Source of the DNA: Sphingomonas sp. LC-1
GTDB lineage: Bacteria; Pseudomonadota; Alphaproteobacteria; Sphingomonadales; Sphingomonadaceae
DNA: 64,000 nt
Assembly (NCBI RefSeq): GCF_025371035.1
Contig: NZ_JANZXB010000001.1
Span: 62,001 to 126,000, forward strand
Direction of reading: 5' to 3'
The notes under the pieces are model-generated. The model searched no databases and was not told the origin of the DNA. It was given only the letters and a program-made list of their open reading frames with translations. Made by a program: the position numbers and the translations under genes. The stretch's first letter is position 1. The number at the start of each line of letters is the position of its first letter. This document shows, piece after piece, positions 8,638 to 35,495 of the stretch.

Positions 8638-8687
8638 GGGCAGGACATAGCCTCGCAAAATCGCCCGCGCCACGCTATATCGCGCGC

Positions 8688-9515: not shown

Positions 9516-9522
9516 GGTCGTG

Positions 9523-17246: not shown

Positions 17247-17420
17247 GACGATTTCCAGACGGTCTAGTGCACTGAAACCGATTTAGCCGTTTGCGCTTAG
17301 ACGAGGCTTAATCCGGCTGGTTAACGCAAAATTAGCTACGAATTGGCTTATCCTGGATCGCCTTGTCGAGCGATAGTCATCTATGCCATTTGCGGATCAG
17401 AAACGGATCAAGGGGATTCC

Positions 17421-18011
17421 ATGTCGACCTTTCAGCGGCTTACCCGACTGCGCCCGGCGATGATCGCACTGATGACCGCCAGCGTCGCCCTGGCCGGCTG
17501 TGCCTCGACCAGCGCCCCGCCCCTGCCCGCGTCCGAGATCGGCAAGGCCCGCCAGCCCTATACATTGGGGGTCGGCGACAAACTGCGCGTTAACGTTTAT
17601 CGCGAGCCCGAATTGAGCGGTGAGTTCGCCGTCGGCGGAGCCGGATCGATCGCCATGCCGCTGATCGGCGAAGTCCCCGTCAAGGGCATGACCCGCGCAC
17701 AGGTCGAGGCGGAACTGGCCCGGCGGCTGGGCAACGGGTTCGTCCGCAATCCCAGCGTCTCGGTCGAGGTCTACGACTTCCGCACCTTCGCGATCCTGGG
17801 CGAAGTTCAGCGTCCCGGGGCGTATCCTGCGCGCGAAGGCACGACCCTGACGTCGGCGGTCGCGCTGGCGGGGGGCTATACCTATCGCGCCAACGAGCAC
17901 CGCCTGTTGCTGCGCCGGGCCAATGGACCGACTTTCTACAGTGTCGATGCCGACGCCGATGTCGAGGTGCAGCCGGGCGATACGATCCGCGTGCCCGAGG
18001 TTCATTTCTGA
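17421..18011 (+). CDS. Polysaccharide export outer-membrane lipoprotein (Wza/GumB-like)
   Basis: Forms the outer-membrane exit for exopolysaccharide; 196 residues, the short form seen in sphingan and xanthan loci. The lipobox VALAGC gives a lipoprotein signal. The Poly_export domain starts at QPYTLGVGDKLRVNVYREPE. A SLBB-like domain follows (FAILGEVQRPGAYPAREGTT). AAGGGGA at 17411-17417 serves ATG 17421. It begins the polysaccharide operon; the outer-membrane barrel gene starts 15 bp after its stop. It resembles the D component of gellan-type clusters, but no gene name is given because the cluster differs. Confidence 0.92.
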   Translation: MSTFQRLTRLRPAMIALMTASVALAGCASTSAPPLPASEIGKARQPYTLGVGDKLRVNVYREPELSGEFAVGGAGSIAMPLIGEVPVKGMTRAQVEAELARRLGNGFVRNPSVSVEVYDFRTFAILGEVQRPGAYPAREGTTLTSAVALAGGYTYRANEHRLLLRRANGPTFYSVDADADVEVQPGDTIRVPEVHF

Positions 18012-18025
18012 CAAGGGGTTATCGG

Positions 18026-19573: not shown

Positions 19574-19652
19574 TCCAGGATCGGCACGAGGCCCTCCGTG
19601 GTCGGATGAAGTTCGCCGCGCGGCGGTGTCGCGATAGCCTGTGGAGGTTGGA

Positions 19653-21053
19653 TTGACGGATCAAGCACTGGCGGCCCCGGGGGTGACGACGGCCGAGCCC
19701 TGGCGCCGTGCCGAGTCCGCGCGTGCCGCGCAGATCGCAAAGTTCGTGCGCATCTATCTCGTGCTGCCCGCCGCGATCATCGCCATCTATCGCAGCACGC
19801 AAATGTGGTATGGATACCCCACGTCGCAGACGGAAAACGCATCCAACGATCCGTTTCTGATGCAGCTGGTGCTCTATTCGCTGGTGCCGCTGACGGGCCT
19901 CGCGACGGTCCTGCTTCCCCGGATGGCGGGGCGTGCCATGATACGGATGGGGCCGCTCGTGGCCTTGCTGGGCATATTCCTCATCGGGTCGATCGTGGCG
20001 TCCGATGACCGGATGAGTTCATTGCGCGGCTTCATCGCCATGATGCTCATCGTCATCCCGATGCTCTATCTCGCATCCTGCTTCGGCGTGAAGGCATCCT
20101 TCGATCTCGTATGGCGGGTCATGGCGGTGCTGCTGGTCGTGAACTTCGCCTATTCGATCCTGTTTCCCCATTTCGCGTTCATGAGCGGATCGTTGAATGG
20201 TACGATGCGCGGCATGTTCAGCCACAAGAACGCCTTCGGTGCCTATTGCGCGCTGACCTTCGTCATGCTGCTGCCGCCCGATTTCGACATTCGGCGCTGG
20301 GACCGACTGCTTCGCCTCGTGCTATGCGCGGTCGCGGCCGTGGGGGCTAAGCTCTCGCTGTCCTCGACGGCGATCGTTCTGCTGATCGTCGGCACCGGGA
20401 TGGTGGTCGTGACGGGGTTCCTGAGCCGCATCGAACAGCGCACGCTGCGCGCGCTCGCGTTCGCCTTCGCGCTCTCCTTCGTCATCCTGCTTGCCAGCGG
20501 CGCCGGGGTCGCGCTTCTGGGCGAGGTGGCGGGCAGTTTCGGCAAGGACGTTACCCTGTCGGGGCGCGCCGAGATCTGGGAGGCGCTTTGGCCGGTGGCA
20601 CTGGACAAGCCCTGGCTGGGCCATGGCTTCGCCATCTTCCGCCAGACCAGCTATTTTCAGCAATTCACCAGCACCATCGCATGGGGCCCGCGCTCGACGC
20701 ATAACACCTATCTGGAGATCGCGCTGAATTCGGGGTTTCCGGCGTTGTTCGTCTGGCTGGCGATCATGCTGGCGGCGATCTTTCGCGGCATCCTGCTGAT
20801 CGATCCGTCCTCACCGGATTATCGGCCCATCCAAAAAGGGATCGCGGCGATCGTGATGGCGCTGCTGGTCTCGACCAGCGAAGCAGGGCAGATGCTGGCG
20901 CCTCTATCGACCTGGCCCATCCTGGTGCTGTCGCTTTATTGCATTGCGATTTCGGACGGCACCCGACGCGTGCGAAGGGCTAGTTCGGTCGCACCCCTCG
21001 GCGAGGGAATGTCGAAGGCCGCCTGGACCTCCGCAAACCGGCGAGCGGTGTAG
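19653..21053 (+). CDS. O-antigen ligase/Wzy-type polymerase, multipass
   Basis: About 466 residues and ten or more membrane segments. The Wzy_C/O-antigen-ligase region contains GRAEIWEALWPVALDKPWLG and STHNTYLEIALNSGFPALF, the periplasmic loop typical of the family. It probably polymerises or ligates polysaccharide repeat units at the inner membrane. GGAGG at 19643-19647 is well placed for a TTG start at 19653; GTG 19641 is the alternative. Its last 118 bp overlap the convergent acyltransferase gene antiparallel, which is unusual. Confidence 0.87.
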   Translation: MTDQALAAPGVTTAEPWRRAESARAAQIAKFVRIYLVLPAAIIAIYRSTQMWYGYPTSQTENASNDPFLMQLVLYSLVPLTGLATVLLPRMAGRAMIRMGPLVALLGIFLIGSIVASDDRMSSLRGFIAMMLIVIPMLYLASCFGVKASFDLVWRVMAVLLVVNFAYSILFPHFAFMSGSLNGTMRGMFSHKNAFGAYCALTFVMLLPPDFDIRRWDRLLRLVLCAVAAVGAKLSLSSTAIVLLIVGTGMVVVTGFLSRIEQRTLRALAFAFALSFVILLASGAGVALLGEVAGSFGKDVTLSGRAEIWEALWPVALDKPWLGHGFAIFRQTSYFQQFTSTIAWGPRSTHNTYLEIALNSGFPALFVWLAIMLAAIFRGILLIDPSSPDYRPIQKGIAAIVMALLVSTSEAGQMLAPLSTWPILVLSLYCIAISDGTRRVRRASSVAPLGEGMSKAAWTSANRRAV

Positions 21054-23020
21054 ATCGCCCCAGCCTTTGAGAGGTGATGCGTGTCGGCGTAGAAGACATG
21101 ACGCTGACCAGCGCGGAATTTGCAGCCGAGCCGATCGCACAAGGACGGCACGGGATCGAACAGCAAGACGCCTGATCGTCCCGCCGCCACGTCGGCAACC
21201 GCCGGGCGCGCCGGATCAGACACTACGGCGCTCCATGGAAGCCGGTCCTGCCGGGTCCTGTTTGGCCAAGTGGCGAACCTGTCGGCCAGTGCCGTCCGGA
21301 CCGGCATCAGATCGTTCAAGGCCGCGCTATAGGGATTGACCGAAAAACGCGGGACATCCTGCATGACGATAACCGTCCGCCCCATCCGGTGGAGGGCGGT
21401 GATCATCCGATCGAGCCCGGACGCGAGCGTCATTCGCCTCTCCGCCACGCTGACACCGTCCGAACTCCCGCTCCCCATTGCTCCGACGGGAGGGGTTTCC
21501 AGCATCGAGGACCAGTAGCCGGCCAGAATGACGACCCGGATACGGGGCTGCGTCCGAATGATCGACAAGGCCTTTGTCAGGAAGGCGGCACATTCCGCCG
21601 CATGGGTCGGATGATTGACCAGGAAATGATCGTAACCCAGGATCGGCTGACAGGCCGATTTGGTCATCTGATACAGCGCCAATGAATGATCCGCGGCCAG
21701 TCCGGCGATCCCCGCCGCCATGGCATTGGCATGACTGTCACCGACCAGGGCGACGGCTGACCCCCTGCCCGACGGCAGGCATGCCTCGGTCGAACGCGGA
21801 GAGGATGCGCCATAGGCAACGAGACAGTTGTTATCCAAAGCGCCGCGAACGTCCGCGTCCAATTGTCGGACCGAGAGCGAAGCCCAGCGCGTGACCCCGC
21901 CGCTGATGACCAGCAGAACGAGTGCGGCGACGCCCCCGCCCCAAAGCGGAGCGTAGCGCCGCAGGCTGATACCGCCGCCGGTTCGCCTGTGCTGGAACGG
22001 CAGTTCAATCGCATAATAGCTCGCCACGGCGACGAGCAGCGTTCCGATCATCAGGGCGGCCCGAACGACCGGGCTGGCGTCGATCCCCAGTATATGCAGC
22101 GCAGCGACGGGCGGCCAATGCCATAGATACCAGGAATAGGAGATACGACCCAAACCGACCAAGGGGGGCGCCCCCAATATCCCAAGGGCTGTGCCGGATA
22201 CGCCCGGCATGACGATCATCGCCGCCGCAGCGACGGCCAGGACCTGCCGGAGCAACACGGGCTGCCCCTCCGGCAGGAACAGCGCAAGCGCCAGAAGCAC
22301 TGTGGCCGCCACCATCCTGTGTTGCCGCGTCAGCGGGTGCGCAAAGCTCGGTAACGGATGAGCCGACCGCAACGCGATCAGTCCACCCACCCCGATCTCC
22401 CAAAAGCGGAACGGCATGAGGTAATAGGCCGCTGCCGGCCGATAGAGCTGGATCAGCGCGGCCAGCCCGAAAGACAGGACGACCGCAGCCAGCATAGCCG
22501 CGCGCAGCCAATGGCCGCCCCTTCGGACACCGATCAGAATGAGGGGCGGCAGAACGAGATAGAATTGCAATTCGACCGAGAGCGACCAGCCCATCAACAG
22601 CAATTGCCGAACGGCCTTGGGCGAAAAATAATCGGTGAACGCCACGAAAACCACGTTGGAAACACCGGTCAACGTCGCAATTGCCGTGATCGCGTAAATC
22701 TTCAGTTCATATGGGGTCGAAATCGCATATGCGATAAGTGTCGTGAAGATGACGACGCAAAACAGAGCAGGCAAGAGCCTGCACGCGCGGCGAATGTAGA
22801 AGTAGCGGTAGCGAAACCGCCCGGCCTGTACCGATCGAAAAAGAATATCGGTAATCAGAAAACCGCTGATGACGAAGAATATGTCAACACCGACATATCC
22901 CGCCGAGAATGACGGCGTTTCATAGTGAAACAAAACGACCAAGAGAATGGCAACCGCACGCAAACCATCCAAGTCGCGGCGATAGGCCGTATCGATCGCT
23001 TTCGGCGCCACGGCCTCCAT
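20936..23020 (-). CDS. Acyltransferase 3 with C-terminal SGNH domain (OafA-like)
   Basis: Inner-membrane O-acyltransferase of 694 residues that would acetylate or acylate surface polysaccharide. The N-terminal acyltransferase-3 domain shows YRRDLDGLRAVAILLVVLFH and YVGVDIFFVISGFLI. The C-terminal periplasmic SGNH domain has block I GDSHAN and block V YADTHHLSKAG with the catalytic Asp-His pair. It is convergent with the polymerase gene and shares its last 118 bp with it. Placement in the export locus suggests decoration of this polymer. Confidence 0.93.
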   Translation of the reverse strand: MEAVAPKAIDTAYRRDLDGLRAVAILLVVLFHYETPSFSAGYVGVDIFFVISGFLITDILFRSVQAGRFRYRYFYIRRACRLLPALFCVVIFTTLIAYAISTPYELKIYAITAIATLTGVSNVVFVAFTDYFSPKAVRQLLLMGWSLSVELQFYLVLPPLILIGVRRGGHWLRAAMLAAVVLSFGLAALIQLYRPAAAYYLMPFRFWEIGVGGLIALRSAHPLPSFAHPLTRQHRMVAATVLLALALFLPEGQPVLLRQVLAVAAAAMIVMPGVSGTALGILGAPPLVGLGRISYSWYLWHWPPVAALHILGIDASPVVRAALMIGTLLVAVASYYAIELPFQHRRTGGGISLRRYAPLWGGGVAALVLLVISGGVTRWASLSVRQLDADVRGALDNNCLVAYGASSPRSTEACLPSGRGSAVALVGDSHANAMAAGIAGLAADHSLALYQMTKSACQPILGYDHFLVNHPTHAAECAAFLTKALSIIRTQPRIRVVILAGYWSSMLETPPVGAMGSGSSDGVSVAERRMTLASGLDRMITALHRMGRTVIVMQDVPRFSVNPYSAALNDLMPVRTALADRFATWPNRTRQDRLPWSAVVSDPARPAVADVAAGRSGVLLFDPVPSLCDRLGCKFRAGQRHVFYADTHHLSKAGAIYTARRFAEVQAAFDIPSPRGATELALRTRRVPSEIAMQ

Positions 23021-23268: not shown

Positions 23269-25257
23269 TTACAGGACCAGCATGTCCCCGGCATTCAGAT
23301 GCGGGGTCAGGTCGATGACCAACGCGCCCTGATCATAGCTTCCCCCCAGCGCCGCCTTGTAGACGAAGCTGTCGCTCGTCTTGTGGTCGGCCACCATCCG
23401 CGCATTGGCGTCGGCATCCAGCGTATAGGTGAAGGCACCGGTGCCATCGATGTGCAGCGTGCCATAGGCGCCCTTCAGATCGACCGCGCCCTTGTTCAGC
23501 TGTTGTCCGCCCACGGTGCGCAGCGACAGGGTGCTGCCGTCCGAAGTCAGGTCGTTGGTCGAGACATTGCCGACGACCGTCTGGCTGTTGGCGGCGATCT
23601 TGTAGAAATCGTCCACCGCCTTCGCCTTCTCGATCGGCTGCCCGGCCTTGAGCGCGGCCTTGGCGGCGGCACTGGTCGGATCCTGCGTCCGGATATAGGC
23701 GGACAGATCGATGGTCAGGTTCGACGAGACGACCTTGCCATTGTCATTGGCCTTATACTGGAAGCTTTCGGTCGGTGCGCCGACATTCTTCAGCTTGGCG
23801 AGCGCATTGCTGTCCAGGCTATAGGTGAAATGGCCATTCTGGTCGACGTGCAGCGTACCGAAGCTGCCCTTCAGGTCGAGGCCATTGGTACCGATGCGGG
23901 TGCCGTTGAACGAGCTGAGCGACAGCTTGCTACCCGCCGCGTTGACGTCATTGTCCATGATGTTGCCGGCAACCTTGGTGCCCGACACGTCCACGGCATA
24001 TCGGTCGGCATTGATCCCGACCTTCAGCGCCTTGTTCAGATTCTCGCTATAGCTTTCTTGAAGCAGCTTGGCGGCCGCGGCATCGGCCTGTGCCTTGGCA
24101 ACCGCCTCTGCCTGAGCCTTGGCGGCGGCATCGACCTGCGCCTTGACCGCGGCCGCGGCTTCGGCCTGCAACCCGGCGGGGGCCTGTGCCGCCGTCGTCA
24201 GGACGTTATTGGCCACGTTGAACGCCCCGGTCAGGCCGCTGCCCTTGATCTGCGACACGGTGCTGTCGATCACCACATTATCGTGGAAGGCGCCGGTCGC
24301 CTGTTTGTCGATCTTCAGCGCGGCGGTCGCGACGCTGACGAAGGTGTTCTTGCTGATGTCGATATTCTGGCGTGTCACGTCGCCGTCGCGCGACAGACCG
24401 GTCAGCGCCACGCCGAAGTTCGATCCGACGATCTCGTTGCCCGAAATCTTGTAATTGCCCAGGTTGATACCCGCGCTCGCCATGATCGCCGACGACCAGC
24501 CATATTTGTTCTGGCCGCTCAGCTTGTTGTTCGTGATCTCGACGTCCCAGCCGTTGATCGCGATGCCGAAGCTGCCGCCCTTCACCTCGTTGCCCGAGGC
24601 GACGACGTTGGACGAGGAGTTGACGATGATCCCGCCCTTGGTCGAATCGGGCGACGTGCTCTGGTCGATGACGTTGCCGGTCATGCGCACGTTCGACGAC
24701 CCGGTGACCTGGATGCCGTCGGCGGTGCCGCCCTTCAGGTTCGTCATGACATTGTTGACGATCTTCACGTCGGTCATGTCGACGACGTAGATGCCGTCAT
24801 TCGACACATGATCGAACTTGCTGTTCGAGATCGTGACGTTCTTGCTCGTCTTCATCGAGATGCTGCCGGTGCCCGTCGCGGCGCCGGCGTTGATCAGCGA
24901 GACGTGATCGATCACCCAATTCTCCGCCTGCGCGGCATAGATGGCGTTCGAGCTGGTCGAGAAGGTCAGGTCCTTGATGACGATGTTCGTCGCCTTGGTC
25001 CCGTAAATGCCCTGCTTGCCGACGAAGGTCGGGTCCGTCCCCTGGCCATAGGCGCCGATGGTGATCGGTTGGTCGGTCGTGCCCGAGCCATTGATGGTCA
25101 GCATGTCGGCAAAGCTGCTGCCGCGCGCCAGCAATATGGTGTCGCCGGCCTTGAGCTTCATACTGGAAATCTTGGCGACGGACTGAAACGCCGTGCCCGC
25201 ACTCGTGCCGCTGTTCTTGTCCGAACCGTTGGCGGCATCGACATAATAGGTCGTCAT
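23269..25257 (-). CDS. Leaderless beta-helix protein with two VCBS-like repeats, candidate type I substrate
   Basis: 662 residues starting MTTYYVDAANGSDKNSGTSA, with no signal peptide. About residues 90-350 form parallel beta-helix (PbH1-like) coils with repeated NxxxxN/GI patterns, as in pectate-lyase-like and surface proteins. Residues 356-400 are an Ala/Gln/Lys-rich, probably coiled-coil linker. Two VCBS/cadherin-like repeats follow (about 418-520 and 545-655), each with a GTLHxDxxGxFTYxLD core. The C-terminus DMLVL (acidic residue then hydrophobics) resembles the end signal of PrtD-type type I substrates. A type I system is encoded 5 kb away. It could bind or cleave the exopolysaccharide, like the R proteins of sphingan clusters; no catalytic residues are evident. 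Confidence 0.82.
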   Translation of the reverse strand: MTTYYVDAANGSDKNSGTSAGTAFQSVAKISSMKLKAGDTILLARGSSFADMLTINGSGTTDQPITIGAYGQGTDPTFVGKQGIYGTKATNIVIKDLTFSTSSNAIYAAQAENWVIDHVSLINAGAATGTGSISMKTSKNVTISNSKFDHVSNDGIYVVDMTDVKIVNNVMTNLKGGTADGIQVTGSSNVRMTGNVIDQSTSPDSTKGGIIVNSSSNVVASGNEVKGGSFGIAINGWDVEITNNKLSGQNKYGWSSAIMASAGINLGNYKISGNEIVGSNFGVALTGLSRDGDVTRQNIDISKNTFVSVATAALKIDKQATGAFHDNVVIDSTVSQIKGSGLTGAFNVANNVLTTAAQAPAGLQAEAAAAVKAQVDAAAKAQAEAVAKAQADAAAAKLLQESYSENLNKALKVGINADRYAVDVSGTKVAGNIMDNDVNAAGSKLSLSSFNGTRIGTNGLDLKGSFGTLHVDQNGHFTYSLDSNALAKLKNVGAPTESFQYKANDNGKVVSSNLTIDLSAYIRTQDPTSAAAKAALKAGQPIEKAKAVDDFYKIAANSQTVVGNVSTNDLTSDGSTLSLRTVGGQQLNKGAVDLKGAYGTLHIDGTGAFTYTLDADANARMVADHKTSDSFVYKAALGGSYDQGALVIDLTPHLNAGDMLVL

Positions 25258-25554
25258 TTTCCGGCTTCTCCGGGGAAGAGAGCAGAGGTCTTCCCGATGA
25301 GGAGCATGTGCCAGCGACGGTGGAAACGACGGGTTACATCCTAGGGTTAACGTTTCGTACACGGTAAAACATTGCCGAAACGCGGTAAATTTCGTGAAAG
25401 GCAATCCGTATTAAGATCTGTCACCGGCGCGCGAGCGGATCGCCAGTGACGCGGCGGACGCGTGCCGTGCGCCGAACGCACAAACGCCGGCGACCTTTCG
25501 GTCACCGCCGTTCGGCATATCCATATCGGCCGCCACGAGGCGGCCGATCGGGAC
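25258..25554. other. Gap between the two VCBS-repeat genes
   Basis: The stretch holds the promoter and ribosome-binding region of the beta-helix gene (GGAGA 9-13 bases ahead of ATG 25257 on the minus strand) and the hairpin following the upstream VCBS gene. I see no further gene. Confidence 0.5.
25525..25548 (-). terminator. Strong stem-loop just after the VCBS-repeat gene
   Basis: ATCGGCCGCC-ACGA-GGCGGCCGAT is a perfect 10-bp stem with a 4-nt loop beginning 7 bp after the stop at 25555. It is probably a terminator or mRNA-stabilising hairpin; there is no T-run. Confidence 0.6.
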
Positions 25555-26295
25555 TCAGATGGCCGGAGCAGCCGAGTTGAACGCGATGTTCAGCAGGGCA
25601 TAGTCGGTGTTGTTGCCTTCACCGTTCTGGCCGTCATGCGGCTTGTAGGCGAACTTCTCGACGCCCTGCGCGCCGTTCAGCGCGAGCGTGTCGGGGTCGG
25701 TATAGTCGACCGCATAGCTGAAGGCGCCGTTGCTGCTGATCGTCAGGGTGCCGTACACGCCCTTGATCTGCACGTCGCTCATGCCGGTGATGTGATAGTT
25801 GGTGTTGGTGGCGAGATCGATCACGCCGCCGACATGCAGCGTATCACCATCGGGATCGCTGTCGTTGGCAAGGACGTTGCCGCCGACGACGCCCGAGTTG
25901 GTCGAGACGAAGTCATCAACCGCGACCGGCTTGCGGTTGGCGGCACCGGCGATGTCGAAGGTCAGAAAGGCCTGATCGTACATGCCGCTGCCGTCGCGGA
26001 TCTTGATCTTGAAGTCTTCGACCATGGTCTGGCCGTTCTTAATGTTCAGGCCAGCGTTCAGCTCATAGGTATAGCTGCCGTCCTGGGCGATGGTCAGCGT
26101 GCCATACTTGCCCTGGAACACGTTGCCACCCTTGCCGCCGCCGATCTGGCCGGCGACATAGCCGTCGTTGACGCGTGCGACAGTGATCGTGTCACCATCG
26201 GCATCGGTCGCGTTGCTGAGGATGTTGCCCGACATCGTACGGGTGTTTTCGTTGAACGAAATCGTCTGGTCAGGAAGGTTGGGCTTGCTCGCCAT
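25555..26295 (-). CDS. Leaderless VCBS/cadherin-like repeat protein
   Basis: 246 residues made almost entirely of two VCBS/cadherin-like units (about 15-115 and 118-240). Each has a D-x-DGD motif (ATDADGDTITV; NDSDPDGDTLHV) and a YGTLTIxxxGxxxY core. Such domains are calcium-binding adhesin modules. There is no signal peptide, so export by the nearby type I system is a reasonable inference. AAGGGGAG lies 9 bases before ATG 26295. It shares its repeat type with the next gene downstream and ends in a hydrophobic-poor tail (AAPAI), so its secretion signal is less clear. Confidence 0.8.
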   Translation of the reverse strand: MASKPNLPDQTISFNENTRTMSGNILSNATDADGDTITVARVNDGYVAGQIGGGKGGNVFQGKYGTLTIAQDGSYTYELNAGLNIKNGQTMVEDFKIKIRDGSGMYDQAFLTFDIAGAANRKPVAVDDFVSTNSGVVGGNVLANDSDPDGDTLHVGGVIDLATNTNYHITGMSDVQIKGVYGTLTISSNGAFSYAVDYTDPDTLALNGAQGVEKFAYKPHDGQNGEGNNTDYALLNIAFNSAAPAI

Positions 26296-26987: not shown

Positions 26988-28562
26988 TTATCGCAACTGG
27001 GCCTTGCCGGATTGCGGCACCCGTTCGGCGATCGCTCTGATCATCCGGGGCCTGGGGTGGGTGCCGGTACGCGGCGAGCCCGCGCCGTCATTGGCATTGG
27101 GTGCGAACACCTCTCCTCCCGCCGCCACGACCGTACGCGATCCGTTATAGTGAAGCTTGCAGGTCCAGTTGCCCGGCTGGCCACTGATCCCGATCACCGT
27201 TGCGAAGGCCGACGTTCCGCCCGCCGCCCATTGAAGCGTATCGCCCAATTCCGGCGCGTCGGCCAATATGATCGTGTCATAGGTGGCCGCGCCATCGGTC
27301 CCCGCCTGCTGAGCCAGGGTCGTGACGAAGAAGGGCTCGGGCCATTTCCCTTGTGTATCGGCCAGGCCGCTGGCGCGCATGACCTCTATATAGCCGGCCA
27401 GCGAGCCGTCCATTCCAGCTTCCTTGTCCGCCTCCAGTTGATAGCGGACGCCGCTCGGCCATTCGCCACCGGCCTGGTAACCCTGATTGGCGAGCGTGCG
27501 GAACCCGTCGGTAGAATTGGGATGGATGACCTGCCCCACCGCGACGATCGGTATGCCCGGATGACGCGCGAGCACACGGTCGTTCAACGCCTTCCAGTTG
27601 CTGCGGGTCGTCGCATAGCTGCTGCTGTCATAGTCGTTACGCCCCATTTGGTTGAGGATACAGGTGAAGGGCCGCCGCCCACCGTTCATCGTCACCACCT
27701 GATCGACAATGTCCCAGCGCTTGGCGGAATTGGTCGAGATCAACTCGCGCTTCGATGCCGCACCGGGCATGCCGATCACCATATGCGGAATACGGCCATA
27801 GGTCCCATCGCGATCGAGCCAACGGCGCAGCCAGCCCATATTGCGCCGCGCATCGGCCGCCAGCGGGTGGTCGGACTGCCGCTCGCCAATCGAATCGCAG
27901 ACGACCAATGGCACCGGCCGCCCGTCCCATCCCTTGGCGACCATGAAATCCGGGCCGTAATAGGCCGGAAAGGATGGCCCATCCAGCGAGGCGGTGCTGG
28001 CCGTGTCGGTCCCGATCAGTGCGGTCAGCGCCGCCGCATTGTCCGCGCCCCAGACGCGCTCGCCCCGCTGTCGCATGATCTGATGCACCGGGATCTGTTT
28101 TTCCCCAGCGGCAGTCATATAGAGCGTGTAGACCGTCACCTGCGCGAGCGGCGGAACCGCGAGCGAGAGGTCGTCGGTCCAGGCCCCCAGCGCGCCGCTG
28201 GCGATGCTGGTCCCCGCCGCCCCGCCGAAACCGCACGACAGGGCCGGACCGCCATTTACCGCGATCCATACGCCGTGGATCACAGTGGCATTGCCCGGCA
28301 GGACCGTCTCCTGCGGACTATTGCCCCCTTCGGTGCAGGCGAAGCCCGAATAATGAAGTCGCAGATGGTCGATCGCATATTGCGGCGAACCGAAGATCAG
28401 TTTCGTCATGATGAAGCGCGTGTCCGACTGCGCGGTCAGCAACGCCCCGGACGGCATCCGCGCGCCGGTCGCCCAGAACATATAGCGGTCCTGGTCGGCC
28501 GGCATGCGCGGATTGCCAAAGGCCGGGCGATTGCCCGCATAGGCCCCTGCCATATCGCTCAC
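26988..28562 (-). CDS. SGNH-hydrolase-like protein, candidate head-spike fibre homologue
   Basis: 524 residues without a signal peptide. A central SGNH-type core is suggested by VVCDSIGERQ (block I-like, Ser224, Gly of GDS replaced by Cys), NQMGRND (block III-like Asn/Asp at 304-310) and a late His in RTGTHPRPRMI (His502). SGNH enzymes are esterases or carbohydrate deacetylases. Residues 1-220 look like beta-rich, non-catalytic sequence. It starts with GTG at 28562, overlapping the stop of the upstream small gene by four bases, so the two are translationally coupled. That partner resembles the GTA spike base, so this may correspond to the spike fibre. Family homology is my inference. Confidence 0.65.
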   Translation of the reverse strand: MSDMAGAYAGNRPAFGNPRMPADQDRYMFWATGARMPSGALLTAQSDTRFIMTKLIFGSPQYAIDHLRLHYSGFACTEGGNSPQETVLPGNATVIHGVWIAVNGGPALSCGFGGAAGTSIASGALGAWTDDLSLAVPPLAQVTVYTLYMTAAGEKQIPVHQIMRQRGERVWGADNAAALTALIGTDTASTASLDGPSFPAYYGPDFMVAKGWDGRPVPLVVCDSIGERQSDHPLAADARRNMGWLRRWLDRDGTYGRIPHMVIGMPGAASKRELISTNSAKRWDIVDQVVTMNGGRRPFTCILNQMGRNDYDSSSYATTRSNWKALNDRVLARHPGIPIVAVGQVIHPNSTDGFRTLANQGYQAGGEWPSGVRYQLEADKEAGMDGSLAGYIEVMRASGLADTQGKWPEPFFVTTLAQQAGTDGAATYDTIILADAPELGDTLQWAAGGTSAFATVIGISGQPGNWTCKLHYNGSRTVVAAGGEVFAPNANDGAGSPRTGTHPRPRMIRAIAERVPQSGKAQLR

Positions 28563-28819
28563 GCCTCCCCGATCAGGTCGGCCGCCGTGGTGCCGGTCGC
28601 GCGGACGAAGCCGGGGCGGACGTTCAGATAAACGCCGCTGGCGACATTGCGATAGACGACGTCCGCGACGCCATCGACGCCGCGAAGCGTGACATGCCCT
28701 CCGGTCCCGACAAAGAGACGCTTGGGCACGATGGCCAGGGCACCCGTGTCGCTGGGAATGATAACAAATGGTGCGCGCGACGGCGCGCTGAGGCTGTCGA
28801 TGTTGAACGGGTCGGCCAT
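28559..28819 (-). CDS. Spike-base-like small protein (RcGTA Rcc01079/GhsA family resemblance)
   Basis: 86 residues. The pattern FVIIPSDTGALAIVPKRLFV, then VGTGGHVTLRG, VVYRNVASGVYLNVRP and a final VRATGTTAADLIG matches my recollection of the spike base protein family of the Rhodobacter gene transfer agent and related phages. There, a small base protein and a larger fibre bind the host capsule. Here it sits in an exopolysaccharide and type I secretion island with no capsid, portal or tail genes nearby. It is coupled to the SGNH-like gene by a GTGA overlap. The family call rests on recognition and needs a profile search. Confidence 0.62.
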   Translation of the reverse strand: MADPFNIDSLSAPSRAPFVIIPSDTGALAIVPKRLFVGTGGHVTLRGVDGVADVVYRNVASGVYLNVRPGFVRATGTTAADLIGEA

Positions 28820-28993
28820 GGCTGTTCTTCCCCCCTATAAAGGCCCGGACACGATGGTCCGGGACAATGTTCCTCTTATGTTCCTTTTATAGCTGTAGGA
28901 AAGCCCCGACAGAGCGGGTATCGGCAGCGCGTCACATCAGGGTCTTCGGGTCAGCCAGCGGCGCCATTCCAGCCGCAGCGGGAATAGGATAGC

Positions 28994-30499
28994 ATGAGCA
29001 ACACAGCCGGGGGTGTCGGAAAGCGGATCGCCAAGGGGAGCATGTGGCTGTCGGCCGCTCGGGTGGTCGTCAATCTTTCGGGCATGGTCAGCACGGTGCT
29101 GCTCGCGCGACTGCTGGTCCCGGCGGATTTCGGCCTGGTCGCGATCGCAGCGACGTTGATGCAGATCGTCACGTCGATCACCGAAATGTCATTGTCCCAG
29201 GCGCTGATCCGGCTGGACGAGCCGACCGATACCGATTTCCATTCCGCCTGGACGCTGTCGATGCTGCGCGGCGTGACGATCGCGGTGGTGCTGTCCGCCT
29301 CGTCGCCGTTCGTCGCGCATCTCTATGGCGATCAGCGGCTGATACCGATCCTGATCGTGCTGGGCGGCGGCGCGCTACTGTCCGGTCTTGCCAATCCCTG
29401 GCTCGCGGTATTCCAGCGGCGGCTGGTCTTCTGGCAGGAGTTCGTCCTGTCCACCGCATCGAAGATGAGCAACGTCATCGTCGCGGTCGGCGTCGCCTGG
29501 TATTTCCAAAGCTATTGGGCGATCGTCGCGGGGATCGTGGCGATGTACGCCTCCAACGTCATCGTTTCCTATTGCATCCTGCCCCGCCTGCCCCGTTTTT
29601 CGCTGGCGAGCTGGCGGACCCTGTTGTCCTTCTCGGTCTGGACCAGCGCGTCGCAGCTCGTGAACGCGCTGAACTGGCGCGCCGACCAGTTGATGGTGGG
29701 CAAGATCGCGACGCCCACGGTGCTCGGCTATTATAATGTCGGCTTCAACCTCGCCAATCTGGCGACGCGTGAGACGACACTGCCGCTGACGCAGACGCTG
29801 TTCCCCGCCTTCGCCTCGATCAAGCACGACAAGCCGCGGTTGAAGACCGCCTATATCAAGGCGGACCGCCTGCTGGTCGCGCTCGGCGTGCCGGTGGGCG
29901 TCGGCTTTGCGTTGGTCGCGGAGCCGATGGTGGCGCTGTTCCTCAACACCAAATGGCTGCCCGCCGTCCCCATCATCCAGGCCTTTGCCGTGATCTTCGG
30001 CCTGCAAGGCGTCGCCGGGCTGGTGACGCCGCTGGGCATGGCGATGGGACAGGTACGGATGCTCTTCCTGCGCGACGTTCAGGTCCTGCTCGTCCGCCTG
30101 CCGCTGATGGCGTTGGGAGCCATATTCTTCGGGGTGCCGGGTCTTGTCGCCGCGCGGGTCGTCACCGGACTCTATCAGGTCGGCATCGCGATGCAGCTTG
30201 CGCGCCGTCTGGCCGGGGTGCCGATCCTGCGCCAGTTTGCGACCCACCTCCCCACCTTTATCGGATGCGTTGCCATGGCACTGGGCGTCTGGGCGGTCGC
30301 GGATCGGGGGCTGCGCGTGATCGCGGGCTTCGATCTGGCGCAGGAGCTGGTCTTGCGCGTGCTGGTCGGCGGCCTCGTCTATCTGGTGACCCGCTTCGCC
30401 ATCTGGTTCGTGACGGGTCGTCCCGAGGGGCTGGAGCGGGACGCGCTGGCGATGCTCGGCAAGCTACGGCGCAAGCGGGCGGCGGCCACCATGGCATGA
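28994..30499 (+). CDS. Wzx-type polysaccharide flippase (MOP superfamily)
   Basis: Inner-membrane flippase of 501 residues with about 12-14 hydrophobic helices. It matches the WzxC/RfbX-type pattern: KGSMWLSAARVVVNLSGMVS at the N-terminus, VPADFGLVAIAATLMQIV, and the central SASQLVNALNWRADQLMVGK. It would translocate undecaprenyl-linked repeat units to the periplasm for the polymerase at 19653. It is divergent from the spike-like pair and precedes the type I secretion genes. Confidence 0.9.
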   Translation: MSNTAGGVGKRIAKGSMWLSAARVVVNLSGMVSTVLLARLLVPADFGLVAIAATLMQIVTSITEMSLSQALIRLDEPTDTDFHSAWTLSMLRGVTIAVVLSASSPFVAHLYGDQRLIPILIVLGGGALLSGLANPWLAVFQRRLVFWQEFVLSTASKMSNVIVAVGVAWYFQSYWAIVAGIVAMYASNVIVSYCILPRLPRFSLASWRTLLSFSVWTSASQLVNALNWRADQLMVGKIATPTVLGYYNVGFNLANLATRETTLPLTQTLFPAFASIKHDKPRLKTAYIKADRLLVALGVPVGVGFALVAEPMVALFLNTKWLPAVPIIQAFAVIFGLQGVAGLVTPLGMAMGQVRMLFLRDVQVLLVRLPLMALGAIFFGVPGLVAARVVTGLYQVGIAMQLARRLAGVPILRQFATHLPTFIGCVAMALGVWAVADRGLRVIAGFDLAQELVLRVLVGGLVYLVTRFAIWFVTGRPEGLERDALAMLGKLRRKRAAATMA

Positions 30500-30718
30500 C
30501 CGCCCCGTCATGGTCGTGTCATTTGGGGACAGAATTGACCCGGGAGTCGATTCCCCGCGTGGCGAAGCGCGCCTAGACCTGCGAATATCGTGGCATTGCG
30601 ACCAGTTGGGGTAGTGCACGCATGGGCCCGTTAACCAATAGGGCCTATAGCCCATGGACATGACGGCGCCGGGGACATCTGGCGCGGCGTGACATGTGGC
30701 GTAAGGAAGGGCCGGGTT

Positions 30719-32467
30719 TTGCGTACAGCCGACGGGGGACAAGACGATCTGCGCATGGCCATGCGCCGGTTTCGATCGGTCTTCGGCATGATCGTGGCGG
30801 TCAGCGCCATATTGAACGTGCTGTTGCTGGCCGGGTCCATCTACATGATGATGGTCTACGACTCGGTGCTGCCGGGCCGGTCGATCCCGACTCTGGTGGG
30901 CCTGCTGATCATGGTCACGCTGGCCTATGCCTTTCAGGGGTTGTTCGAGAATTTGCGCGCCGGCCTTTTGTCCGATGTGGGCAACGGGCTGGACCGGGCG
31001 CTGTCGCGCCGGGTGCAGGGCGCGATGGGGCAGATGTCGCTCGACGGGCGGGTGACGCAGGGCGACGGCCTGGGCCCGATGCGCGATCTGGACCAGGTGC
31101 GCAGCTTCATCAGCGGCACCGGCCTGGCGACGATGATCGACCTGCCCTGGATCCTGTTCTTCCTGGGCGTGCTGTTCATGCTGCACGTCTGGCTGGGCGT
31201 CACGACCCTGATCGGAGCGCTGATCCTGCTGGCGCTGACGCTGGTGACCAACCGGGTCATGAAGAAGCCGTCGGCTGACCTCCACCAGATGTCTTCGGTC
31301 CGCAACGCCATGGCCGAATCGAACATGCGGCATGTCGAACTCTTCGCCGCGCTGGGCATGCGCGAGCGGATGCGAGACCGGTGGGAGCGGGTGAACAACC
31401 AATATGTCACCCTGTCCAACCGCGTCTCACGCGAAAGCGCCAAGCTGGGCGGGGTCAGCAAGGTCCTTCGCCTGCTGCTGCAATCGGTCATCCTCAGCGT
31501 CGGCGCACTGCTCGTCATCAACGGCAAGGCCAGCGGCGGCGTCATCTTCGCCTCGTCCATCCTGTCGGGCCGCGCACTGGCGCCGGTCGACCAGGCGATC
31601 GCCAATTGGCGCAATCTGGTCGGCGCGCGTCAGGGTTGGGCACGGCTGAAGCAGCTTTTCTCGCGCGTCCCGGCCGCCGATCACGGCATGACTCGCCTGC
31701 CCGCACCGCATCAAAGCCTGCTCGTCGAAAATCTGGTCGTCGGCCCACCGGGCACGCAGCGGGTCACCCTGCACGGCGTCCAGTTCCGGCTGAACCCCGG
31801 CGATGCGCTCGGCCTGATCGGGCCCAGCGGCGCGGGCAAGACCACGCTCGGTCGCGCGCTGATCGGCTTGTGGCAGCCTCAGGCGGGCGCGGTGCGGCTC
31901 GACGGCGCGGCGCTCGACCAATGGTGGCCGGACGATCTGGGTCGGTGGCTCGGCTATCTGCCCCAGTCGGTGGAACTGGTCGGCGGCACCATCGCGCAGA
32001 ATATCGCCCGCTTCGATCCCGAAGCCACGTCGGAAGCGATCATCGCCGCCGCGCGCGACGCCGGAGTCCACGCGCTGATTACCAGCCTGCCCGCCGGCTA
32101 TGACACCCAGATCGGCGAGGATGGCCGCGAGCTTTCCGCCGGTCAGCGCCAGCGTATCGGGCTGGCACGGGCGCTTTATGGCGATCCCTTCCTGATCGTT
32201 CTGGACGAGCCCAATTCCAATCTCGACGCCGAGGGCGAGGCCGCTCTGGCCGCCGCGATCGGCTCGGTCCGCAACCGTGGCGGCATCGTCGTCGTCATCG
32301 CCCATCGTCCCAGCGTTTTGGGACAGGTCAACAAGATCATGTATTTGCGCGACGGCCGTATCGAGCTATTCGGCCCCAGCGATCAGGTCATGGACCATCT
32401 GACGCGCGCGGCGCTGCCCAACGGCACGCCCACGCCCGAGCGTACCCTTGAGGAAAGCAAGTCATGA
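30719..32467 (+). CDS. Type I secretion ABC transporter (PrtD-like permease/ATPase)
   Basis: Inner-membrane exporter of a type I secretion system; about 582 residues, the PrtD-like length without a peptidase domain. The membrane domain starts AMRRFRSVFGMIVAV and includes SIYMMMVYDSVLPGRS. The nucleotide-binding domain has Walker A GPSGAGKTT (about 368-376), signature ELSAGQRQR and Walker B LIVLDEPNSNLD, all intact. AAGGAAGG at 30703-30710 favours a TTG start at 30719; GTG 30689 is the alternative. The downstream HlyD gene overlaps by four bases. Substrates are probably the leaderless proteins at 23269-26295. Confidence 0.9.
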   Translation: MRTADGGQDDLRMAMRRFRSVFGMIVAVSAILNVLLLAGSIYMMMVYDSVLPGRSIPTLVGLLIMVTLAYAFQGLFENLRAGLLSDVGNGLDRALSRRVQGAMGQMSLDGRVTQGDGLGPMRDLDQVRSFISGTGLATMIDLPWILFFLGVLFMLHVWLGVTTLIGALILLALTLVTNRVMKKPSADLHQMSSVRNAMAESNMRHVELFAALGMRERMRDRWERVNNQYVTLSNRVSRESAKLGGVSKVLRLLLQSVILSVGALLVINGKASGGVIFASSILSGRALAPVDQAIANWRNLVGARQGWARLKQLFSRVPAADHGMTRLPAPHQSLLVENLVVGPPGTQRVTLHGVQFRLNPGDALGLIGPSGAGKTTLGRALIGLWQPQAGAVRLDGAALDQWWPDDLGRWLGYLPQSVELVGGTIAQNIARFDPEATSEAIIAAARDAGVHALITSLPAGYDTQIGEDGRELSAGQRQRIGLARALYGDPFLIVLDEPNSNLDAEGEAALAAAIGSVRNRGGIVVVIAHRPSVLGQVNKIMYLRDGRIELFGPSDQVMDHLTRAALPNGTPTPERTLEESKS

Positions 32468-33819
32468 ACGGCATCGTCACCACCGGCGGCCCCGGCACGC
32501 GCCTGACCGCGATCGACGAAGAGGCCCCCCTCTATGATCCGCTGCGGAGTGCGAAGCGCCAGTTCCGCATCGCGCTGACCGCGATCCTCGTGCTAGTGCT
32601 GGGCTTCGGCCTGGCGGGTGCGCTCATCCCGATCGGCGGCGCGGTCATCGCGCCCGGCCAGGTCGGGGTGAAGAGCCGGATCAAGCGGATCGCGCATCCC
32701 GCGGGCGGCGTCATTTCCGAAATCCTGGTCGAAAATGGCCAGCGCGTGCGCAAGGGCCAGGTGCTGATGCGCTTCGACGACCGCGTCACCGACGCCGATG
32801 CCCGCTATTCCAGCCTCAGCGTCGACCAGTTGCTCGCCCAGCGCGCGCGGCTGGAGGCGGAGCGTCTGGGCGCGCCGAGCATCAGCTTCCCCGCCGAACT
32901 GGTCAATGGTGGCGAGGGTGCCCAGCGCGCCATGGCGGACGAGCGCAAGCTTTTCACCATCCGCAAGACCGAACAGTCGGGCCTGATCGCCCAGCTCGAA
33001 TCGCGCGTGCGGCAATATGAGCAGCAGATCGGCGCCTATCGCGCGCAGATCAACGCGCTGGAACAGCAGACCGCGCTCATCAATCCCGAGCGTCAGGGCG
33101 TGAAGGATCTGTGGGAAAAGGGGCTGGTCACGATCAGCCGCCGCAACCAGCTCGAACGCACGGCCGCCGATCTTCAGGGCAATGTCGGGGCGCTCCAGGC
33201 CAATATCGCCTCGACCCAGGCGCGTATCACCGAGGCGCGCGAACAGATCATCCAGCTGGGCGAGACCCGCCGTTCGGAAGCGGGCACGCGCCTGGCCGAG
33301 ATCAACAATACGCTGAACCAGCAACAGGTGCGCAGCGTCTCGGCGGTCGATGCGCAAGACCGCAGCGTCCTGCGCGCGCCCTATGACGGCGTCGTCGACA
33401 AGCTGGCCTTCAACACCATCGGCGGCGTCGTTCGCGGGGCCGAGGTCATCATGGAAATCGTGCCCGATAGCGACGAGCTGATGGTGGAGGCGGGTGTCTC
33501 GCCGCTCGACATCGATCAGGTGCGGGTGGGCCAACAGGCGCGTATCCGTTTCAGCGGATTGAACTCCACCGCGACGCCGGAAATCCATGGCCGGGTGGTG
33601 ACGGTGGCCGCCGACCGGTCGATGGATCAGGAGGGCAAGCAGGCCTTCTACCCGGTCCGCGTCGCGATCGAGGAGGCCGAGTTGCGCCGCTATCCCGAAA
33701 TCCAGCTGCGCCCCGGCGTGCCGGCCGAGGTGTTCATCGAAACCGGCCACCGGACGATGATCTCTTACATCACGAAACCCCTGCGCGATCAGTTCGAGCG
33801 GGCTTTCCGAGACAATTAA
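32464..33819 (+). CDS. HlyD-family type I secretion periplasmic adaptor
   Basis: 451 residues. A single N-terminal membrane helix (FRIALTAILVLVLGFGLAGA) is followed by a lipoyl half (VKSRIKRIAHPAGGVISEIL), a long coiled coil and the second lipoyl/beta-barrel region (LRAPYDGVVDKLAFNTIGGV). The tail TMISYITKPLRDQFERAFRD is typical of type I adaptors (PrtE/LapC-like). It bridges the ABC transporter and TolC. The ATGA overlap with the ABC gene indicates translational coupling. Confidence 0.94.
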   Translation: MNGIVTTGGPGTRLTAIDEEAPLYDPLRSAKRQFRIALTAILVLVLGFGLAGALIPIGGAVIAPGQVGVKSRIKRIAHPAGGVISEILVENGQRVRKGQVLMRFDDRVTDADARYSSLSVDQLLAQRARLEAERLGAPSISFPAELVNGGEGAQRAMADERKLFTIRKTEQSGLIAQLESRVRQYEQQIGAYRAQINALEQQTALINPERQGVKDLWEKGLVTISRRNQLERTAADLQGNVGALQANIASTQARITEAREQIIQLGETRRSEAGTRLAEINNTLNQQQVRSVSAVDAQDRSVLRAPYDGVVDKLAFNTIGGVVRGAEVIMEIVPDSDELMVEAGVSPLDIDQVRVGQQARIRFSGLNSTATPEIHGRVVTVAADRSMDQEGKQAFYPVRVAIEEAELRRYPEIQLRPGVPAEVFIETGHRTMISYITKPLRDQFERAFRDN

Positions 33820-33836
33820 TTCGACGGAGTGGGGCA

Positions 33837-35495
33837 ATGATGGTGAACAGGGGGAAGGCGCTGGGGCTGCGCGCCGGTTTGACGATGCTGGCCTTGATGG
33901 GATCGGCATCGGGCGTCGCGTTGGCGCAGGTGCCGACCGCTGCCGGCATGCCGCAGCCGCTGGAGCCGCAACTGCCGCGCGAGACGCCCGAGGGCGCGCT
34001 GGCGGCGAATGCGACGCCGACGCTGACCACGCTGGAGGCCGCGATCGCGCGGGCTTATTGGAGCAATCCGACACTGGTCGCAGAGCGTTCGACGCTGAAG
34101 TCGGTCGACACGCTCTATCCGCTGGCGCGGGCGAGCTATGGCCCGCAGATCACGCTTCAGGGTTCGCACCAGTTCACCCGTACCCGCAGCGAAATCTACC
34201 CCGGTCTCTTCAACCGGCCCGAGGGTTTCTCGAGCACCGCGCAGCTGGTCTTCTCGCAGCCGGTTCTGTCGTTCGGGCGGCGCGCATCGGCCGAGCAGAA
34301 TGCGCTCGCGCAGATCGCGCTGGAGCGTGAGCAGCTTCGACTGGTCGAAGCATCGACCATGTACAACGTGATCTCGGCCTATGTCGGGGTGATCCGCGAC
34401 CGCAATATCGTGGAACTGGCGCGACAGAACCTGGCGCTGCTCGAGCGCCAATATAGCGATGGCCGCGCGCGGTTCGCGGTGCGCGACATCACCTCCAGCG
34501 ATTTGCAGCAGGTACAGACGCGCGTCGAATTCGGCCGCGCACAGCTGCTGAACGCGCAGGGGCAATTGGGTTCGAGCCAGTCGCTGTTCCTCCAGGCGAC
34601 GGGCGGCCTGCCCGGCGATCTGGCAGTGCCGCCGCAATTGGCCCTGGGCGTCGGTTCGCTCGACGCGGCCTATGGCATCGCCGAAAATGCCAGCCCGATC
34701 ATTCGCGGCGCCCAGTCGCGCGAAAAGGTGTCGCGCGCCGCCGTCGCCGCCGCCAAGGCCGAGCAGAACCCCAATGTCTCGCTGGAAAGCAGCGGCACCT
34801 ACGGCCCGACCTCGATCTACCAGAACCAGCTTCGCACCACCGACCTGCGCTCGTCGGTGGTGGTGACGATGCCGCTGATCGATTCGGGCACGCGCCGCCT
34901 GTCGATCGAGCGGGCGCGTCAGCAGAATGACGCTGATTGGCGATTGGTGGATGCAGCCCTGCGCGAAACGCGCCAGTCGGTCGCGCAGGCCTGGGACGCG
35001 CACCGCGCCGCGCTGGCCTCGCTCGACCATCTGCGCGCTGCCTCCGCTGCGGCGCAGGCGGCCTATGACGGAGCCGTCATCCAGGAAAAGGCCGGCGACC
35101 GCACGACCCTCGACGTGCTCGACCTGGCGCGCGACCTGCTGAACATCCGCACCAGCTATGCCACGGCCGAGGCGAATGAATATATTGCGCGGGCGCAGCT
35201 CCTGTCCGCCATGGGCAATCTGGAGGCGCCCAAGCTGATCTCCGGCCTGCCCGCCTATGACACCAACGCCAATTTCGATCGCGTGAAGCGGCGCGGCGAC
35301 GTGCCGTTGCTGACCCCGCTGCTGTCGGGGGCGGACAATCTGGTGAGCGGCAACGTGATCGCGCGCGAGCGTCCGATCCGCGACCCGTCGGGCGCGCTGC
35401 GGGTCGAAACGTCGGTCACGCCGCTGGAGGTGCCGCCCGCGCCCCCGGTGACGGAGGCGACGACCCCCGCCCCGGCGAAGCCGCCGCGACGCTAA
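33837..35495 (+). CDS. TolC-family outer-membrane channel for type I secretion
   Basis: 552 residues with a signal peptide (LGLRAGLTMLALMGSASGVA) and the duplicated TolC/OEP repeats. One starts TLEAAIARAYWSNPTLVAER and the second half includes QARQ- and DRTTLDVLDLARDLL-type helices. The C-terminal tail is Pro/Ala-rich. It follows the HlyD gene by 17 bp and completes a three-gene type I secretion operon. Confidence 0.93.
   Translation: MMVNRGKALGLRAGLTMLALMGSASGVALAQVPTAAGMPQPLEPQLPRETPEGALAANATPTLTTLEAAIARAYWSNPTLVAERSTLKSVDTLYPLARASYGPQITLQGSHQFTRTRSEIYPGLFNRPEGFSSTAQLVFSQPVLSFGRRASAEQNALAQIALEREQLRLVEASTMYNVISAYVGVIRDRNIVELARQNLALLERQYSDGRARFAVRDITSSDLQQVQTRVEFGRAQLLNAQGQLGSSQSLFLQATGGLPGDLAVPPQLALGVGSLDAAYGIAENASPIIRGAQSREKVSRAAVAAAKAEQNPNVSLESSGTYGPTSIYQNQLRTTDLRSSVVVTMPLIDSGTRRLSIERARQQNDADWRLVDAALRETRQSVAQAWDAHRAALASLDHLRAASAAAQAAYDGAVIQEKAGDRTTLDVLDLARDLLNIRTSYATAEANEYIARAQLLSAMGNLEAPKLISGLPAYDTNANFDRVKRRGDVPLLTPLLSGADNLVSGNVIARERPIRDPSGALRVETSVTPLEVPPAPPVTEATTPAPAKPPRR

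Follow-up and report, generated by a model that had tools for sequence, protein, structure and literature searches.

The stretch of DNA analyzed here, termed the window (G000:C1:62001-126000, 64,000 nucleotides of the 4.15-Mb, 48-contig genome of Sphingomonas sp. LC-1), carries within an exopolysaccharide (EPS) island two adjacent genes on the reverse strand, a base of 86 amino acids and a larger fibre, which probably form a detached head-spike operon belonging to the gene transfer agent (GTA) of the same cell. Both open reading frames (ORFs) lie where a preliminary description of the window, made from the sequence, had placed them (Table 1), and its assignment of the small protein to the family of Rcc01079, the head-spike base of the Rhodobacter capsulatus GTA (RcGTA), is borne out by profile search and by structure prediction of the base alone. 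Against NCBIfam NF048002 ('spike base protein, RCAP_Rcc01079 family'), where the cut-off is 28, the base scores 79.7 bits (E = 1.4e-22); it also matches PHROG 12296 (E = 5e-11) and finds chain 6tb9_E3 (Rcc01079, E = 4.1e-8) in a sequence search of the Protein Data Bank (PDB). The predicted fold (pLDDT 81.6) is the jellyroll of the RcGTA head-spike base, with 6tb9_A1 as the top Foldseek match (E = 6.2e-6, TM 0.78/0.80). The small protein is thus a member of the Rcc01079 spike-base family. The orthologues in genomes G064 and G067 are 91 and 84% identical, with ratios of nonsynonymous to synonymous substitution rates (dN/dS) of 0.11 and 0.12.

The fibre is similarly conserved (88 and 79% identity to G064 and G067, dN/dS = 0.10 and 0.17). 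The translational coupling of the two genes through a GTGA overlap, as first described, is present in the window and in G064, whereas the junction in Sphingomonas yabuuchiae DSM 14562 (G067, locus L335) reads TAAGCCATG. The start shared by all three orthologues is an ATG at 28553, giving a fibre of 521 amino acids, and the overlap is therefore not the conserved feature. The fibre matches PHROG 8480, 'lysophospholipase L1-like esterase' (E = 4.3e-78), and tblastn finds matches in 70 of 50,697 phage records, all of them Rhizobium phages, with 44 of the 70 covering at least 80% of the query. Among the matches listed (20 of the 70) the phage esterases, for example RHEph01 gp54 and that of RHph_TM3_3_3, are 33-41% identical to the window fibre. 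In RHEph01 the major head gene, a small ORF, the esterase gene and a tail gene come in that order, and in RHph_TM3_3_3 the esterase gene lies between portal and head. Unlike the window, the four Rhizobium phage loci examined have no detectable Rcc01079-type base.

A sequence search of the PDB returns no match to the fibre at E = 1. The predicted two-domain fold, at medium model confidence (pLDDT 72.5), is closest to polyvinyl-alcohol esterase (9kr0, E ~1e-11) and to carbohydrate acetylesterases such as PbeAcXE (7tog, E ~1e-10), in which an SGNH domain is combined with one resembling a carbohydrate-binding module; identity to these enzymes is 10-14%. In a 12-sequence alignment (A2) S224, G267 and N309 are invariant and H502 is nearly so, residues that we take to represent the SGNH catalytic blocks. 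The Asp of the DxxH motif, present in the proteins of the four Rhizobium phages, is replaced by Thr in all three orthologues (T-G-T-H), by Glu in loci L008, L028 and L029 and by Ser in L030, and the Thr leaves catalysis by the fibre uncertain. The description of the large protein as SGNH-like is consequently upheld by the predicted fold and by the Ser, Gly, Asn and His positions, but not by the Asp or by Pfam GDSL_2 (PF13472), where the score of 16.6 bits is below the gathering cut-off of 32.9; the fibre may be an active esterase. Two paralogues of the window esterase, L008 (G000:C45) and L029 (G064:C67), are about 50% identical and have no spike base detected beside them.

Spike cassettes in EPS loci of the Sphingomonadaceae

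Of 397 genomes of the same family, 74 have a match to NF048002 over the cut-off and 81 have one at E = 0.001; across the class the corresponding numbers are 13 and 14 of 387. A further 67 family loci with matches above ~50 bits were taken, their ORFs were grouped by similarity and labelled as EPS or phage by eye, and ten representatives were verified with Pfam (Poly_export, Wzz, Wzy_C, a sugar-nucleotide dehydratase and two glycosyltransferase families on the EPS side; Phage_portal, Phage_capsid, Terminase_6 and a TIM-barrel/DUF2460 tail protein on the phage side). By script an EPS locus has at least two EPS-labelled and fewer than two phage-labelled ORFs within 9.5 kb, a GTA/phage-like locus the reverse, and the 67 loci sort into 38 EPS, 13 GTA/phage-like and 13 other, with 3 dropping out. 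L191, L194 and L195, whose bases fall outside the base cluster, are left out of the locus table. The EPS set used below (n = 47) consists of 44 same-family loci assigned by the rule, L095 and L155 assigned by hand (one marker each) and the G064 locus (L025) assigned by synteny, L099 and L097 from other families being excluded. A base and fibre cassette in an EPS locus is accordingly present in 47 genomes of the family.

In all 46 tabulated EPS cassettes a fibre ORF of at least 246 amino acids begins between -10 and +5 nucleotides from the end of the base gene. The fibres themselves are diverse, forming 20 families by BLAST, and 27 of the 46 begin with a peptide of alternating hydrophobic and glycine residues (for example MPGFGYGFGIG), similar to the peptide that fastens the RcGTA fibre to its base (PMC7296036). 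Pfam assigns no family to seven of ten fibres scanned, the others having a sialate-acetylesterase domain, an SWM repeat and a sub-threshold DUF1565. Within genera the similarity of fibres tracks shared EPS genes (Spearman 0.55, 90 pairs, p = 0.002 from 2,000 within-genus permutations, a test that ignores phylogeny inside genera). In L189 the fibre (8061-9881, reverse strand) contains a domain like that of sialate O-acetylesterases (PF03629), which adds a second type of spike esterase unrelated to the window's.

A sequence element upstream of the cassettes was found by comparing 250 nucleotides upstream of 46 cassettes with 400 upstreams of other ORFs from the same loci. TTTCCTAC, whose copy at the window cassette is the sole one in the 64 kb, is present upstream of 39 of 46 cassettes and of none of the 400 controls, and CTGTCCTACA is found in five of the other seven. 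Either form precedes 44 of 46 EPS cassettes compared with 0 of 730 control upstreams, at a median of 64 nucleotides before the start, and the downstream T at +24 (26/39) and A at +25 (30/39) form a -10-like step. The full ten-mer CT[TG]TCCTACA is upstream of 30/46 cassettes and 5/11 orphan cassettes, with 0/730 controls, 0/13 in-cluster GTA bases and 0/8 prophage-type bases. Counted over whole stretches it is seen once among 20 GTA loci without a base (in L199, ahead of the first gene), once among 13 in-cluster loci and three times among 56 viral GTA loci. In a second set, among the 38 loci listed, T[TG]TCCTAC is upstream of 16 of 17 EPS cassettes (15 of 16 without L335, which is in the first set), of none of nine GTA-cluster bases and of one of 12 others (the orphan L149). 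CTGTCCTACA is also retained upstream of five cassettes that are not in a recognised EPS locus, namely L143, which lies at the end of a contig, L147, L149, L173 and L174. Among the papers listed for TTTCCTACA as a promoter in the open-licence literature, none is related.

Downstream of the element in the window is a direct repeat, GAAC-N7-GAAC, which resembles the alphaproteobacterial LexA box; five papers in a literature listing mention GTTCN7GTTC together with LexA. The repeat is found at 17/46 EPS cassettes and 15/730 controls, but five of the 17 sites, all from a single genus, are almost the same and adjoin the start codon. With one mismatch allowed it is present at 10/31 GTA-cluster upstreams compared with 119/730 controls (p = 0.028), and a near match lies upstream of the GTA cluster of the window's own genome. 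The fraction of upstreams with full CtrA sites (TTAA-N7-TTAA) is 0.000 in both the 46 cassettes and the 730 controls. A weight matrix of the cassette element applied to the 31 GTA-cluster upstreams gives one clear match (L199, 22.3 bits) and otherwise weak ones; the scores exceed those of random stretches (Mann-Whitney p = 6e-7, 3/31 above the 95th percentile), an excess that may reflect A+T-rich promoter DNA. When the cassette and GTA upstreams of one genome are compared, G000 gives 18/22 identical nucleotides (reached by 3/60 random stretches) and G067 16/22 (5/60), and the level in G064 is reached by 25/60 random stretches, a similarity that is no more than suggestive. Judged from these sequences the cassettes seem to be regulated as a unit, in a way that partly overlaps with regulation of the GTA but does not use the same promoter. 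A different motif, AACC-N5-GG, is present at 22/31 GTA-cluster upstreams, 12/46 cassettes and 22/730 controls; in the form AACC-N5-GG[TC][TA] it precedes GTA clusters such as those of L196-L215, several times immediately ahead of a TTGACA-like box, and is a candidate GTA operator.

GTA clusters and prophages of the cassette genomes

The preliminary description noted that structural genes are missing near the pair. No capsid or portal genes are found near it within the window, whereas a search of the genome locates a GTA-like head-tail cluster on contig C23 (L196, G000:C23:36000-55999, capsid at C23:45475). L196 contains TerS, TerL, portal, protease, capsid and tail genes, a DUF2460-type protein, hub, NlpC and tail tip in the usual GTA order and is in this respect RcGTA-like. 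No spike base is present in the 20 kb of L196 examined, nor in the GTA stretches of 15 other cassette genomes and four cassette-free ones (L215 being cut by its stretch). In 13 other genomes a base of the same family is found inside the same type of GTA cluster, in both mapped cases (L158, L168) between capsid and g6, a position different from that of the window base and lacking the cassette element upstream. All 13 in-cluster genomes, and 41 of 45 cassette genomes sampled, have a single base only. GTA head-tail clusters are known in the Sphingomonadales (PMC9765227, in the part of the text available). An initial conclusion that the genome has no GTA, drawn from the absence of GTA_TIM (PF13547), was overturned by the capsid search. 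PF13547 is absent from G000 and from eight other genomes of the same family (0/9), and the tail protein of L160, related to that of L196, has a TIM barrel of another family (PF23845) fused to DUF2460, which together make PF13547 a poor GTA marker here. Among viral loci from IMG/VR (L216-L334 and L054), 56 of 120 are GTA head-tail clusters catalogued as viral contigs, and L221 is also a GTA cluster by similarity.

GTA markers were searched in 80 genomes, comprising 47 with a cassette, eight with an in-cluster base and 25 cassette-free controls (the lowest-numbered genomes from G586 on). A strong capsid (249-310 bits) is found in 37/47, 8/8 and 14/25 of these, respectively, and the tail marker, the 771-amino acid protein of L196 at 650 bits or more, in 38/47, 8/8 and 14/25. 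The enrichment of the tail marker in cassette over cassette-free genomes has a Fisher p of 0.031, with phylogeny ignored.

Prophage-type capsids are present in the same genome on contigs C3 and C48. At the ends of these contigs (L006, L007) the two prophage stretches have lysis genes that resemble each other, then a spike base and the start of a fibre, MPGLGIGLGIGLGG, and the contig ends probably mark an assembly break in a shared fibre gene.

Interpretation of the pair

The base-less GTA-like cluster of the window's own genome, together with a layout that recurs across the family, argues that of two alternatives in the preliminary description a detached spike operon for a GTA whose genes lie elsewhere has better support than a module reused by the cell. 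In the available text of PMC10218006 the head-spike genes of R. capsulatus (rcc01079/80) lie away from the head-tail cluster and adjoin, and are co-regulated with, capsule genes, and a tagged RcGTA fibre binds capsulated cells better; the genes are described as under GafA and CtrA control (PMC9638019, in part). Detached spikes beside capsule genes are thus already known, and a position beside polysaccharide genes is not unique to the window pair. The pair resembles GhsA/GhsB (Rcc01079/Rcc01080) in base family and fold, as a two-gene unit detached from the head-tail cluster, and in its polysaccharide neighbours. It differs in its 521-residue esterase-like fibre, which is set apart by published length from the 325-residue Rcc01080 (PMC7296036, in part), in lying inside an EPS island and in its promoter element, which does not appear in the available parts of the published RcGTA descriptions. 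A detached head-spike operon of the cell's own GTA is the most economical account of the pair and our best reading, and a likely one. Also in its favour are the single base of most cassette genomes, the enrichment of the tail marker among them, the anchor-like peptide of 27 of 46 fibres, the purifying selection on both genes, the link between fibre type and EPS gene content within genera, and the GAAC-N7-GAAC and AACC-N5-GG motifs upstream of some cassettes.

Were the pair such an operon, production of the GTA would place base pentamers at the fivefold capsid vertices, each holding one esterase-like fibre by its N terminus. The fibre would bind the EPS that the locus around it specifies, perhaps also stripping acyl groups from it, and the particle would dock on kin carrying the same polymer. 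Neither protein has an evident signal peptide as judged by eye, making release by lysis in particles more likely than secretion. We infer that base and fibre are components of GTA particles and that the fibre recognises the local EPS. With the spike genes inside the EPS locus, spike and EPS would be inherited or exchanged together.

Several observations weigh against an operon serving the GTA. The window fibre N terminus, MAGAYAGNRPAFGNPRM, lacks the Ile/Leu-Gly star peptide by which the RcGTA fibre is held to its base (PMC7296036, in the part available), and 18 of 46 cassette fibres likewise lack an alternating hydrophobic/Gly peptide. The sequence GNRPAFGN of the window N terminus is found again in L187 and, partly, in L336 and L337, beside bases that are 66-76% like those of the window's group, making an alternative, unproven anchor possible. 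The cassette motifs are also rare at GTA clusters, with CT[TG]TCCTACA upstream of only 1/31 and the exact GAAC-N7-GAAC at 0/31. The enrichment of the capsid marker in cassette genomes has a Fisher p of 0.058 (phylogeny ignored), and among the 25 cassette-free genomes 14 carry the GTA marker although no base is detected in them. Similarity of the base, finally, is weak evidence in either direction. The nearest GTA base by alignment score (L162, 248) is ahead of the nearest phage base (L216, 229), the best viral tblastn match, which is 59-60% identical to the window base compared with 57-61% reached by GTA bases. L216 has no GTA marker, encodes a 767-amino acid fibre and by eye looks like a contractile-tailed phage locus (8001-10572), an indication that the Rcc01079 base family also serves other virion types. 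Among the EPS bases 37/47, the window's included, are nearer by score to in-cluster GTA than to phage bases, and leave-one-out scoring places 56/58 GTA and 36/46 phage bases correctly (L221 counted as GTA); since identity fails to separate the two groups for the window base, the score comparison is not taken as strong evidence.

Nine of the 47 cassette genomes are without an intact GTA tail marker (G932, G909, G937, G324, G813, G943, G538 and G810, with fragments in G802), and all nine keep TTTCCTAC or CTGTCCTACA. These weigh further against a GTA role and leave room for a cell function, in which the base, as a multimeric platform, would carry an esterase acting on or binding to EPS on the surface of the same cell, and particles would play no part. 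The location of the pair inside an EPS island with synteny in three species, the predicted carbohydrate-esterase fold and the tendency of fibre type to follow the EPS genes are consistent with such a domesticated module. We nevertheless regard it as unlikely, as seven of the nine genomes share their genus with a cassette genome that has the marker, suggesting recent loss, and as GTA clusters and phages contain relatives of the base, esterases are not the rule among the ten fibres scanned with Pfam, a LexA-like repeat lies upstream of the cassette and a secretion signal is not evident by eye on either protein. It is a good deal less probable that the pair arms a prophage of the same cell. The capsids on C3 and C48, the esterase family common in Rhizobium phages and the similarity of the L216 base would allow this, but both prophages have their own base followed by a fibre start with an anchor peptide at the contig end, the window base is only 39-42% identical to theirs, and a second base is absent from most of the cassette genomes sampled. 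A relic of a prophage inserted in the EPS locus, as the phage-type proteins without other phage genes nearby might suggest, is very improbable given the purifying selection (dN/dS 0.10-0.17), the synteny in three species, the conserved promoter element and the same layout in dozens of genomes with unrelated fibres.

Returning to the detached GTA spike operon, a plausible though tentative extension is that in the Sphingomonadaceae the receptor-binding GTA head spike has moved into the EPS locus, where it forms an exchangeable cassette equipped with a promoter element, CT[TG]TCCTACA, and sometimes a LexA-like repeat. Particles would then carry a spike matched to the polymer encoded on the same DNA segment, a physically linked 'badge and reader' that directs DNA to kin and moves with the slime type. 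Searches of the open-licence literature found no earlier account of sphingomonad spike cassettes embedded in EPS loci, of how diverse their fibres are or of the promoter element. The case bears on why bacteria keep GTAs and on whether the DNA is aimed at relatives: were a spike that reads a polysaccharide carried beside the genes writing that polysaccharide, kin-directed transfer could be put to a direct test. The promoter element would also provide a DNA signature for finding GTA spike genes remote from the head-tail cluster, which cluster-based GTA surveys would miss.

The surrounding EPS island

Table 1. Position, strand and supporting evidence of features in the window
Feature	Position	Strand	Evidence
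EPS export/polymerisation block	17343..21053	+	Pfam
Wza-like	17343-18011	+	Pfam
BBP2 porin	18026-19573	+	Pfam
Wzy/O-antigen ligase	19641-21053	+	Pfam
Acyltransferase-3 + SGNH, polymer acylation candidate	20936..23020	-	PF01757, PF19040
Beta-helix + VCBS/cadherin repeat protein	23269..25404	-	Pfam PF13229, PF17963
Cadherin/VCBS repeat protein, downstream neighbour	25555..26295	-	Pfam PF17803, PF17963; syntenic in G064, G067
Fibre gene, two-domain carbohydrate-esterase-like (predicted), 524 amino acids from GTG	26988..28562	-	PHROG 8480, fold, dN/dS
Spike base gene, 86 amino acids, Rcc01079 family	28559..28819	-	NF048002, 6tb9, dN/dS
GAACATAAGAGGAAC, GAAC-N7-GAAC direct repeat after promoter element	28869..28883	-	Motif search
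Cassette promoter element CTTTCCTACA	28894..28903	-	TTTCCTAC part begins 83 nt before base start
Wzx-like flippase, divergent neighbour of cassette	28994..30499	+	PF13440, PF01943
Type I secretion system: ABC, HlyD, TolC	30689..35495	+	TIGR01842, TIGR01843 over cut-off; OEP PF02321

The island places the cassette between repeat proteins and a divergent flippase gene, and the base and fibre pair is kept at the same island position in G064 and G067, which belong to the same genus. Relatives of the fibre at E = 1e-10 are found in 5 of 201 genomes of the genus, with identity of at least 79% only in G000, G064 and G067, and the beta-helix neighbour at E = 1e-40 is restricted to the same three of the 201. 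The TolC-type component of the type I secretion system scores 208.3 bits against TIGR01844, under the cut-off of 225.15. The acyltransferase-SGNH gene is 64 and 45% identical to its counterparts in G064 and G067 and diverges faster than its neighbours, which suggests that acylation of the polymer is changing. In S. yabuuchiae (G067) a prophage-like stretch (L028) contains another pair, less closely related, and such a pair is also seen in the viral contig L054.

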